Shown here one piece after another: positions 45,045 to 48,215 of a DNA stretch of 48,215 nucleotides. The position numbers were made by a program, and so were the translations under genes. The DNA comes from Gammaproteobacteria bacterium. Its GTDB lineage: Bacteria; Pseudomonadota; Gammaproteobacteria; Steroidobacterales; Steroidobacteraceae. The notes under the pieces are model-generated. The model was given only the letters and a program-made list of their open reading frames with translations, was not told the origin of the DNA and did not search any database. Each line of letters opens with the position of its first letter. Positions within the stretch are counted from its first letter, which is position 1. The stretch lies in contig PKWJ01000034.1 of assembly GCA_003132025.1 (NCBI GenBank), positions 1 to 48,215 on the forward strand, written 5' to 3'.

Positions 45045-45724
45045 TCAGCTTCGAGCACGTCAGCAAGCGCTATCCCAATGGGCGCGAAGCGCTGACCGAT
45101 CTGAGCTTCGACATTCACGACGGCGAGATGGCGTTCCTCACCGGCCGTTCCGGCGCCGGCAAGAGCACCGTGCTCAAGCTGATCGCACTGCTCGAGCGCC
45201 CCACGCGCGGCCAGGTGCTGGTCAATGGCGACAACACCGCCAAACTGCCGTTGCGGCGCGTGCCGCTGTTTCGCCGCGGCCTGGGAGTGGTGTTCCAGGA
45301 TCACCGGCTGCTGATGGATCGGCCGGTGTTCGACAACGTGGCGCTGCCGCTGATCGTCGCCGACACCTCATTCCGCGAAATCGAAAAACGCGTACGCGCC
45401 GCTCTCGACCAGGTGGGCCTGCTGGGCAAGGAGCGGGTCGCGCCGCTGGAGCTGTCGGTGGGCGAGCAGCAGCGCGTCGGCATCGCGCGCGCCATCGTCA
45501 GCAAGCCGCCGCTGCTGGTGGCCGATGAACCCACCGGCAATCTCGACGCCACGCTCGCCGCGGAGGTCATGGGCCTGTTCCGGCGCTTCAATGAAGTCGG
45601 TGTCACCGTGGTGGTGGCGACTCACGACCTGCACCTGGTGCGCGAATCCGGGTTGCGCGAAATCGTGCTCGACGACGGCCGCAGCCAGACGCCGCCGATG
45701 CCGCCGATGCAGGCGTTGCGATAA
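45041..45724 (+). CDS. ftsE: cell division ATP-binding protein FtsE
   Basis: A 227-residue ABC ATPase that pairs with FtsX and controls septal peptidoglycan hydrolases. Walker A is GRSGAGKST, the Q loop VVFQDHRLL, Walker B LLVADEPTGNLD, and the switch His is in VVATHDLHLV. The signature reads LSVGEQQRVGIARA: Val140 stands where nearly all FtsE have Gly (LSGGE). GTG at 45041 overlaps the ftsY stop by four bases. Confidence 0.95.
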   Translation: MISFEHVSKRYPNGREALTDLSFDIHDGEMAFLTGRSGAGKSTVLKLIALLERPTRGQVLVNGDNTAKLPLRRVPLFRRGLGVVFQDHRLLMDRPVFDNVALPLIVADTSFREIEKRVRAALDQVGLLGKERVAPLELSVGEQQRVGIARAIVSKPPLLVADEPTGNLDATLAAEVMGLFRRFNEVGVTVVVATHDLHLVRESGLREIVLDDGRSQTPPMPPMQALR

Positions 45725-45737
45725 TAGACGCGCCCAC

Positions 45738-46670
45738 ATGCCCGGCAGTCTCTCCAACTGGATCGCACGCCATGCACACGCGCTGGTGTCCACCACCGGC
45801 CATCTCGGGCGCCACGGATTCGCCACCGTACTTACCGTGGCGGTGATGGGGCTGGCGCTGGCATTGCCGCTGGCGCTCAACGTACTGGTGCGCAACGTTC
45901 GCGACGCCACCGGCGATTTCTCCGAGGCGGTGGGACTGTCGGTCTACCTCAAGCCCGAGGTGCCGGAACAGAAGGCGCGCCAGCTGGCGAAGAGCGCCGG
46001 TGAGCGCACCGGCGTCGCCAGCGCGACGCTGATCACCGCAAGCGAAGCGCTGGCGGAATTTCGAGCCCAGTCGGGCTTCGGTGCCGCGTTGGACGCATTG
46101 CCGGATAATCCGCTGCCTAATGTGCTGACCATTCGCCCGGCGCCCGATGCCGCCTCACCTTCCCAGCTCGAGGCGCTGCGCAGCTACCTGCTGTCCTGGC
46201 CCGAGGTCGATTCGGTGCAGCTCGATCGCGACTGGGTGCTGCGCTTCAGCGCCATCCTCGAACTGCTGCGCCGCGTGGTGCTGATCACCGCGGTACTGCT
46301 GGGCGCCGGCGTGATCGCCGTCGTCGGCAACACCATCCGGCTGGAGATATTGAACCGCCGCGCCGAGATCGAAGTCACCAAGCTGGTCGGCGGCACCAAT
46401 GCCTTCGTGCGGCGGCCGTTTCTTTATGCCGGGGTGTTGTATGGGATCCTCGCGGGCTCCATCGCCTGGAGCATCGTGGCGCTGGCGCGTGCGAGCCTGG
46501 CGCCGGCGGCGATGCGGCTGGCAACGGCCTATGGCAGCGGGTTCACGCTCGAGGGCCCGAGCTTCTCCGAACTGGGCATCCTGCTGCTGTCCGGCATGGT
46601 CCTGGGCTGGCTCGGAGCCTGGATCGCCGCGGCGCGGCAGCTGGCTCGGATTGAGCCGCGAACGGCCTGA
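45738..46670 (+). CDS. ftsX: cell division protein FtsX
   Basis: A 310-residue membrane protein with four helices and a large periplasmic loop. HGFATVLTVAVMGLALALPL starts the first helix; the loop (LSVYLKPEVPEQKARQLAKS, LPDNPLPNVLTIRP) contacts EnvC-type activators; IAVVGNTIRLEILNRRAEIE, VTKLVGGTNAFVRRPF and GILLLSGMVLGWLGAWIAA close it. ATG at 45738, 13 bases after ftsE. Confidence 0.95.
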   Translation: MPGSLSNWIARHAHALVSTTGHLGRHGFATVLTVAVMGLALALPLALNVLVRNVRDATGDFSEAVGLSVYLKPEVPEQKARQLAKSAGERTGVASATLITASEALAEFRAQSGFGAALDALPDNPLPNVLTIRPAPDAASPSQLEALRSYLLSWPEVDSVQLDRDWVLRFSAILELLRRVVLITAVLLGAGVIAVVGNTIRLEILNRRAEIEVTKLVGGTNAFVRRPFLYAGVLYGILAGSIAWSIVALARASLAPAAMRLATAYGSGFTLEGPSFSELGILLLSGMVLGWLGAWIAAARQLARIEPRTA

Positions 46671-46723: not shown

Positions 46724-46764
46724 CTCTAAGTCCTTGAATATACGTCCCTCTAAGTCATTGAATA
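46724..46764. repeat. two 17-base direct repeats upstream of rpoH
   Basis: CTCTAAGTCCTTGAATA (46724-46740) and CTCTAAGTCATTGAATA (46748-46764) differ at one base and lie 24 bases apart, about two helical turns. Each contains TTGAAT, a -35-like box. They lie 28 to 68 bases before the CIRCE element and could be activator sites or tandem promoters. Confidence 0.55.
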
Positions 46765-46791
46765 GTAGAGATAGATTTTCTGTCTGGAGGC

Positions 46792-46818
46792 TTAGCACTC
46801 TGCCCATGAGAGTGCTAA
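46792..46818. promoter_or_regulatory. perfect CIRCE element (HrcA operator) in the rpoH leader
   Basis: TTAGCACTC (46792-46800), nine bases, then GAGTGCTAA (46810-46818): an exact copy of the CIRCE consensus. CIRCE is bound by the heat-shock repressor HrcA, classically before groE, dnaK or hrcA. It ends 32 bases before the rpoH start codon, so it lies within or at the start of the leader. Confidence 0.9.
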
Positions 46819-46850
46819 ACTATGTCCCTATCTACTAGGAGGATCGCGGA

Positions 46851-47729
46851 GTGACTAATTCACAGACTGCGCTGATCGCCCAACCCGCCGCCTTCGGACT
46901 GGCCGGTCCCATTGGCAGTTTTGATGCTTACCTGGATCGGGTGAGCCGGATTCCCGTGCTCAGCCGCGAGCAGGAGCAGGAGCTCGCGCTGCGTTTTCGG
47001 CGCGATGATGACCTGAGTGCGGCACGCGAGCTGGTGCTGTCGCACCTGCGCTTCGTGGTGCACATTGCGCGCGGCTATTCAGGCTATGGCCTGCCGATGA
47101 ACGACCTGGTGCAGGAGGGCAATATCGGCCTGATGAAAGCCGTCAAGCGCTTCGACCCCAACGTCGGGGTGCGCCTGGTGTCGTTCGCGGTGCATTGGAT
47201 CCGCGCCGAAATTCATGAGTACGTGCTGCGTAACTGGCGGCTGGTGAAGGTCGCCACCACCAAGGCGCAGCGCAAGCTGTTTTTCAATCTGCGCCGCATG
47301 AAGCCGAATCTCGCCTGGCTGAGCGCGGACGAAACGCGCGCGGTGGCCGAGGATCTCGGCGTGACCCCGGCCGAAGTCACCGAGATGGAGCGCCGGCTGT
47401 CGGCGCGTGATCTGTCATTCGACGTCGGCCCGGAAAACGACGAAGAGGAAAGCTTCGGGCCGGCGGCTTATCTGCCGGCGGCCGACGCCGATCCGGCCGA
47501 ACAGGTCGAGGCTGAAGAGTGGACCAGCTCGTCGAACGAGCGGCTGTCGGACGCAATGAAGCGGCTCGACGATCGCAGCCGGACCATTCTGCAACGCCGC
47601 TGGATGAGCGACGACAAGGCTACGCTGCACGAACTGGCGGCCGAGTACGGCGTGTCGGCCGAGCGCATCCGCCAGATCGAGGCCGGCGCCATGACCAAGC
47701 TCAAGGCGCTGCTGCCGGCTCCGGCCTGA
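46851..47729 (+). CDS. rpoH: RNA polymerase sigma-32 (heat-shock) factor
   Basis: A 292-residue group 3 sigma factor that reads heat-shock promoters. Region 2: [60 protein letters not shown]; the RpoH box QRKLFFNLR; region 4: [14 protein letters not shown] and [23 protein letters not shown] start at 46851 with AGGAGG eight bases upstream. It follows ftsX by 180 bases, the classic ftsYEX-rpoH order, but has its own upstream CIRCE. Its end overlaps the convergent OmpA-type gene by 29 bases. Confidence 0.96.
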
Positions 47730-48215
47730 ACTCGATCTCGATCCGGCGATTCTCCACCCGTCCCGGCGGCGTCTGATTGCTCGCCACCGCGTCGCTGGCG
47801 CCGGCACCACGCTGTTGCAGGCGTTTGGCGGCAATCCCGGCGGCGCTAAGTGCGTCGCTGATCGCCTGCGCGCGCTGGTCCGACAGGCTCTGATTCGCAC
47901 TCGCGCCGCCGATGCTGTCGGTATAGACCACCACCTGCGCCCGCAGCCGGCGGCGTTTCTTCAGCAGCTGCACGCTGGCGGCCAGCGCCGCCGCCGCGGC
48001 CGGGTCGCGTTTCAGATCCGCGCTGTCGAACTCGAACACTAATCGCGCCGGGATACGCAGGATCACCCGCTCGGGCTCGCGCAGCACCAGCACCCCGCTG
48101 TCGTCCGGCAGGCGCGCCAGCGCTACCTGCAGCTGCGCCTGGTCGCGGTCGAGCTCGCGGCGCACCGCCGGCTTCGGCGGCGGCGGCGCAGCCTCGCCGG
48201 CCGCGGACGCGGAAA
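47701..48215 (-). CDS. OmpA-domain protein, partial (start outside window)
   Basis: The C-terminal part of a peptidoglycan-binding protein; the frame stays open to the right edge. The OmpA-like domain shows [54 protein letters not shown] and [12 protein letters not shown] (the R-x-x-N-R-R-x-x-I end). Upstream is a Pro-rich linker (APPPPKPA), so a signal or lipoprotein start probably lies beyond 48215. It converges with rpoH, overlapping its last 29 bases. Confidence 0.88.

Follow-up and report, generated by a model that had tools for sequence, protein, structure and literature searches.

A perfect CIRCE element upstream of rpoH in a Steroidobacteraceae genome: a predicted HrcA operator, its conservation and its overlap with promoter elements

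The CIRCE element, its target gene and the predicted HrcA circuit of the same genome

The window (i.e. the whole 48,215 nt stretch of DNA that was analysed) contains the gene order ftsE-ftsX-rpoH, as is also the case in E. coli. Within the 180-bp gap between the end of ftsX and the GTG start codon of rpoH, an inverted repeat, TTAGCACTC-N9-GAGTGCTAA, was identified which matches the CIRCE consensus without a single mismatch (Table 1). The full 27-mer reads TTAGCACTCTGCCCATGAGAGTGCTAA, and its arms measure 10 bp each when one extra pair is included. The first-pass annotation had described a perfect CIRCE element 32 bases ahead of the gene for a heat-shock sigma factor, and both parts of this description were borne out: 32 nt separate the end of CIRCE from the GTG, and the deduced protein was assigned to RpoH by full-length profile match (TIGR02392 equivalog, 407.1 bits against a cut-off of 323.1; NF005143, 425 bits against a cut-off of 241). 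As ftsX and rpoH are both located on the + strand, rpoH represents the gene that CIRCE can serve; a role as operator of a divergent gene was ruled out, no such gene being present at the element.

Table 1. Features of the CIRCE-rpoH locus (positions refer to the window)
Feature	Position	Strand	Basis
ORF with ftsX, upstream gene; true start probably further in	45525..46670	+	ORF, profile match
Position of the σE -35 (GGAACT) in most relatives; the window has ATTTTCT	46775..46781	+	Leader alignment
CIRCE, predicted HrcA operator	46792..46818	no strand	Perfect match, conservation in relatives
TTAGCA, CIRCE left arm; possible weak -35 (4/6 of TTGACA), 18 bp 5' of the -10-like hexamer	46792..46797	+	Inference from sequence
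TAAACT, -10-like hexamer, TAA in common with the CIRCE right arm	46816..46821	+	Leader alignment
AGGAGG, Shine-Dalgarno, 8 nt 5' of the GTG	46837..46842	+	Sequence
rpoH, heat-shock sigma factor 32, GTG start	46851..47729	+	ORF, profile matches

The nearest named relatives of this RpoH are encoded by MAGs titled Gammaproteobacteria, Proteobacteria or Steroidobacteraceae, with the RpoH proteins of Steroidobacter agaridevorans (69%) and of Woeseiaceae being further removed than those of the nearest MAGs. RpoH proteins close to the window group (66-72% identity) were also observed in three MAGs titled Klebsiella pneumoniae, Burkholderiaceae and Janthinobacterium lividum (L130, L144 and L156), record titles which are probably wrong. 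Two further features flank the gene, i.e. a 17-nt direct repeat, CTCTAAGTC(C/A)TTGAATA, at positions 46724-46740 and 46748-46764, with a spacing of 24 and immediately 5' of the rpoH promoter region, and an OmpA-family ORF (47701-48165, - strand), which runs opposite to rpoH and shares 29 bases with its 3' end.

A pattern scan revealed a single CIRCE copy in the window, and no match was obtained in 100 dinucleotide shuffles of the same sequence. When the genome (4.2 Mb, 61 contigs, 97% complete) was searched with up to 3 mismatches, two CIRCE elements were found, both perfect, one at rpoH and one at groES, while a backward control pattern gave 0 matches genome-wide. A chance origin of the match was ruled out by the shuffles and the backward control. 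The additional copy (C23:53764-53790) is located 66 nt upstream of groES (PF00166, 123 bits). The first-pass annotation had noted that hrcA itself lies outside the window, and the gene was indeed located elsewhere in the genome, at C59:134825-135841 (TIGR00331, 331 bits against a cut-off of 197.2), followed by grpE (PF01025), dnaK and dnaJ. No CIRCE within 3 mismatches was found at this hrcA-grpE-dnaK-dnaJ cluster. The genome also encodes RpoE (285 bits against a cut-off of 236).

Conservation of CIRCE on rpoH

To place the element in context, a set of relatives was analysed which comprises 60 genomes, including that of the window (G000), and in which the rpoH leader was readable in 55, the remaining five (G003, G010, G015, G021 and G032) being outside the count. 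CIRCE was found within 500 bp upstream of rpoH in 54 of the 55 readable leaders, 43 of these elements being perfect and 11 carrying one mismatch; the first-pass annotation had made its proposal dependent on such a presence in close relatives. Among 80 named loci, which overlap partly with the 60-genome set, 78 were shown to carry CIRCE upstream of rpoH (56 perfect, and 14, 7 and 1 with one, two and three mismatches, respectively). The two exceptions are a locus whose stored stretch begins inside the gene (L124) and one whose best match has 8 mismatches (L136). At the Steroidobacter agaridevorans locus (L126), rpoH is preceded by a CIRCE with one mismatch and by a σE promoter.

CIRCE on rpoH is present in every one of the 49 relatives that combine an hrcA match with a readable leader, and in five of the six that have a readable leader and no hrcA match. 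The only readable relative without CIRCE on rpoH, G047, was shown to possess neither hrcA, according to two models, nor any CIRCE within 3 mismatches genome-wide. Relatives with CIRCE on rpoH and no detectable hrcA include three genomes of 72-83% completeness (G008, G012 and G014), as well as G039 (rated 100% complete, in 340 contigs) and G048 (92% complete).

A wider draw of 143 genomes from the class, almost every one representing a separate family, was screened for CIRCE, rpoH and hrcA. CIRCE within 1 mismatch was present in 104 of the 143 genomes, rpoH in 128 (E<=1e-90) and hrcA in 102 (E<=0.001), 98 of the latter scoring above cut-off. Where both hrcA and rpoH were detected at these thresholds, CIRCE (up to 3 mismatches) was located upstream of rpoH in 87 of 93 genomes, leaving six hrcA-bearing genomes without it (G171, G130, G084, G179, G095 and G072). 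G090 encodes a pair of rpoH genes, only one of which is preceded by CIRCE (1 mismatch). Among the class genomes with rpoH and no hrcA match, CIRCE on rpoH was observed in 8 of 35, a count based on 18 leaders that were read and 17 genomes without CIRCE within 1 mismatch anywhere, in which a weaker site may be present. Four of these eight genomes are 62-85% complete, three (G193, G075 and G186) are 97-98% complete, and one (G133) carries a weak site with 3 mismatches. The association between hrcA and CIRCE on rpoH was significant by plain counts (Fisher p 1e-5, 110 leaders) and weak on independent branches, where a tree-based test at class level yielded only one supported pair (88 of 109 rows usable, the other 21 being dropped for a premature stop in their translation). 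No HrcA was found by TIGR00331 or PF01628 in G039, G048, G193, G075 and G186 (92-100% complete); CIRCE without HrcA in these five genomes may be explained by loss of a contig or of the gene, or by a different protein that recognises the site.

For comparison, 41 genomes from a second class within the same phylum (probably Alphaproteobacteria) were analysed. In this class, rpoH was detected in 36 genomes (E<=1e-60) and some CIRCE within 3 mismatches in 31, and CIRCE adjoins rpoH, by coordinates, in only 3 of the 36 genomes with rpoH. With 87/93 in the window's class and 3/36 in the second, the link between rpoH and CIRCE represents a trait of the former, being sporadic in the other class sampled. 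Judged by these sequence matches, rpoH is a near-constant member of the putative CIRCE gene set across the class. The possibility that the feature is private to the window's genome was ruled out by its conservation in both order and class.

Unlike in the window's genome, CIRCE was seen to adjoin hrcA directly, by coordinates, in at least two relatives (G051 and G043, up to 3 mismatches) and, within 1 mismatch, in at least 12 genomes of the class draw.

Promoter elements overlapping the palindrome

To explore the surroundings of the element, 123 non-identical rpoH leaders from the order were aligned in register on the palindrome, excluding duplicates, leaders with less than 75 bp upstream and leaders without the site. 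Three conserved blocks were identified outside the CIRCE arms. The first, GGAACT, is located ~16 bases upstream of the palindrome, and we take it to be the -35 of σE promoters. The second consists of AA at spacer positions 2-3, which combines with the TC that ends the left arm to give TCNAA, a σE-like -10; among leaders with GAAC at the -35 place, GAACNN is separated from this TC by 16 nt in 72, 17 nt in 30 and 15 nt in 2. The third is a -10-like TAANNT, which has its TAA in common with the right arm and the final T of which is present in 123/123 order leaders and in 83/93 class leaders.

A strict rule for σE promoters (GAAC[TC]-N16..18-TCN[AG]A) matched 93 of the 123 order leaders, compared with 0.5 expected from base shuffles, and in all 93 the -10 was found at one fixed place inside the palindrome. 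Among the class leaders with CIRCE, the same rule matched 40 of 93 (0.2 expected from base shuffles); 30 of these promoters are embedded in the palindrome, 9 have their -10 upstream of it and 1 lies elsewhere, while GAAC alone at the place of the σE -35 was observed in 60 of the 93. The GAAC -35 and the spacer -10 were shown to occur together, with 96 order leaders having both, 13 neither and 14 being discordant (p 3e-8, plain counts). On independent branches, 10 supported pairs were obtained, of which 5 changed in the same way, 0 in the opposite way and 5 were undecided (median p 0.06), the reverse test giving a median p of 0.125. The pairing is thus strong by plain counts and, on independent branches, only suggestive.

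Furthermore, the relationship between these elements and RpoE was assessed. No RpoE above cut-off was found in eight relatives, two of which (G041 and G048) lack both σE elements and one of which (G047) lacks CIRCE; the other five (G045, G043, G014, G019 and G054) keep one or both elements, three of them being 72-88% complete and two containing RpoE fragments. Among the relatives with RpoE, 8 of 47 lack both elements. The tie between a missing rpoE and missing σE elements is weak.

The window itself departs from this pattern. The σE promoter GGAACTT-N16-TCNNA was not found in its leader, ATTTTCT and TCTGC being present at the two places, and the spacer AA of CIRCE is absent. A search of the same leader for a σ70 promoter with at least 9/12 consensus letters in two hexamers gave 0 hits; TTAGCA-N18-TAAACT holds 8/12. 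The window and the four rows closest to it by path (L093, L086, L084 and L173), presumably a supported five-row set in the tree, have GAAC at the σE place in 0/5 and lack the spacer AA/GA in 4/5, while all five palindromes are perfect and retain the final T of TAANNT. Perfect arms in five rows without the σE GAAC indicate that the arms do not exist for a σE promoter alone. In this clade, the σE input to rpoH seems to have been lost and the predicted HrcA operator kept, RpoE still being encoded in the window's genome; this persistence of the operator argues that HrcA binding itself would be under selection.

As a control, the CIRCE copies at groES were compared, i.e. 34 sites with groES, made up of that of G000 and 33 others among the matches listed; three further fetched loci (L233-L235) have no groES and fall outside the 34. 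Among the matches listed, spacer AA/GA was found in 0/34, GAAC in 1/34 and the final T of TAANNT in 1/34, whereas TTGA was present 24-27 bases upstream of the palindrome in 32/34 and an A four bases upstream of it in 34/34. These boxes look as in a CTTGAAA...CCCCTAT promoter of the σ32/σ70 type. With the groES sites lacking the rpoH-type blocks, the latter are a property of rpoH rather than of CIRCE itself. The groES elements among the matches listed were perfect in 13/34, with 4 carrying one mismatch and 17 carrying two or three, so that the rpoH element (43/54 perfect, none with more than one mismatch) looks better kept in the order than the groES copy. An altered left arm, TTAGCAGCC, was seen in 14 of the 34 groES sites among the matches listed (L199 and most of L217-L232), in many members of the window's family, whereas the rpoH copy is perfect or carries one mismatch.

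The overlap bears on the foremost alternative to an operator, namely that the palindrome is kept mainly as promoter sequence, supplying the σE -10 and parts of a σ70-like promoter, with HrcA binding being incidental. Such a reading would account for the single fixed position of the σE -10 inside the site in 93/123 leaders and for the fusion of TAANNT to the right arm in 123/123, but a promoter has no need of an 18-letter palindrome, and the arms are perfect in all five rows of the window's clade, where the σE GAAC is missing. Moreover, the groES copies among the matches listed combine the same kind of arms with quite different promoter letters, and 9 class leaders have their σE promoter upstream of the palindrome rather than inside it. 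We consider this explanation improbable.

Interpretation and comparison with known systems

The palindrome is very probably an HrcA operator on rpoH, at which HrcA would cover the promoter core and through which chaperone status would gate σ32. The first-pass annotation had proposed a repressor circuit placed atop the activator of the σ32 circuit, and this appears to be the best-supported reading, given that the genome has hrcA and that almost every close relative has the element on rpoH. From the sequence we infer HrcA binding, repression and coupling to GroEL, as well as the start sites and the holoenzyme transcribing rpoH. HrcA bound to the palindrome would block RNA polymerase at the promoter of rpoH, where it would cover the σE -10 and the σ70-like -10, which are partly made of operator letters, in most of the order-level relatives, and the σ70-like -10 alone in the window. 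In Bacillus, GroEL keeps HrcA active. In the unstressed cell, free GroEL would keep HrcA active and rpoH expression low, and rpoH and groESL would be derepressed together as soon as GroEL is engaged by unfolded protein or HrcA loses its activity in the heat. Newly made σ32 would then drive transcription of groESL, and probably of other chaperone genes too, and the σ32-like boxes beside the groES CIRCE in the order would fit such an action on groESL. GroEL in excess would finally reactivate HrcA and close rpoH again. In Xylella under nitrogen starvation, hrcA was reported to rise 4-fold (2 h) and rpoH 2-fold (8 and 12 h) in the available part of PMC3224663, a co-rise which does not fit simple repression there, CIRCE on Xylella rpoH being an assumption.

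It is very unlikely that the site represents a relic or serves a protein other than HrcA, with HrcA acting only on groESL. The near-complete genomes G039, G048, G193, G075 and G186, which have the site and no detectable hrcA, would agree with this; however, the rpoH copy looks better kept than the groES copy in the order (43/54 versus 13/34 perfect, the latter among the matches listed), and CIRCE on rpoH is associated with hrcA across the class. An action in the mRNA, as a hairpin governing stability or as a thermosensor rather than as a DNA operator, is equally improbable and was rejected: in Bacillus, CIRCE copies inside leaders influence the stability of the mRNA, and E. coli rpoH mRNA is a thermosensor, but, judged by spacing, a start directed by the hexamer at 46816-46821 would lie near 46828, past the palindrome, and the σE starts of the relatives would fall in its right half, while most spacer letters (promoter letters excepted) are free to vary and positions 46828-46950 of the window fold no better than shuffles (z -0.29).

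The element looks functional and recurs more widely than the first-pass annotation could have recognised: a class-wide predicted HrcA operator on rpoH, usually fused to a σE promoter in the window's order. Its kind is known, and its extent and fused architecture appear to be new in the open-access literature searched. The class-wide recurrence suggests that a repressor switch is commonly placed atop the sigma-factor switch, unlike in E. coli. A broader proposal is advanced tentatively, as a real possibility rather than an expectation: in hrcA-bearing Gammaproteobacteria, a main task of HrcA may be to gate rpoH, with the 27-bp palindrome acting as a three-way hub (HrcA operator, σE -10 and half of a σ70 promoter) at which chaperone status, sensed through GroEL and HrcA, could veto the σE envelope-stress and housekeeping inputs; E. 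coli would then represent a derived state in which the σE input was kept and the repressor veto lost. Proteobacterial heat shock is taught from E. coli. If HrcA gated rpoH directly in most hrcA-bearing families of the class, the two heat-shock systems would be stacked rather than parallel, with GroEL as their common sensor, and transcription of rpoH would be a main control point. A repressor palindrome that doubles as a σE -10 would also lead to a direct, testable prediction on how two stress sensors are combined.

In the open-access literature searched, as far as its available text extends, no description of a class-wide or σE-fused CIRCE on rpoH was found. CIRCE on rpoH is mentioned in the available part of PMC545781, and not in those of PMC1978210, PMC10696704, PMC3135505, PMC11764788, PMC3224663 and PMC3989490. 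The arrangement is therefore, going by that part, not without precedent: in Geobacter sulfurreducens, a perfect CIRCE was reported at -51 of rpoH (Rodionov et al. 2004, PMC545781). As described there, this species resembles the window's genome in having a further CIRCE on groESL and in combining hrcA and rpoH in one genome, and differs from it in that hrcA-grpE-dnaKJ carries CIRCE too. The Geobacter case is a computational prediction for one species of those studied, and the part of PMC545781 available mentions no fused σE promoter.

The window's genome agrees with the classical HrcA/CIRCE regulon (groESL, hrcA-grpE-dnaKJ) in the sequence and spacing of the operator, the presence of hrcA and the copy at groES, and departs from it in having a sigma factor gene as a predicted target. 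Agrobacterium tumefaciens, like the window's genome, possesses both RpoH and HrcA, which reportedly (by the title of a 1999 study by Nakahigashi et al.) have differential and independent roles in this species. Its groE is under the control of both RpoH and HrcA, according to the available part of a review (PMC11764788). In the second class analysed here, probably that of Agrobacterium, CIRCE adjoins rpoH in only 3/36 genomes.

The E. coli control gave no hrcA match by profile search, and HrcA is not known from this species. Its σ32 is controlled mainly by translation and proteolysis. The E. coli rpoH leader analysed shows no CIRCE, whereas in the relatives the σE -10 lies inside CIRCE and the window is without a σE promoter. 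In E. coli K-12 MG1655, this leader contains GAACTT-N16-TCTGA, the σE-dependent promoter P3, and N16 is the commonest spacing in the relatives of the window too.
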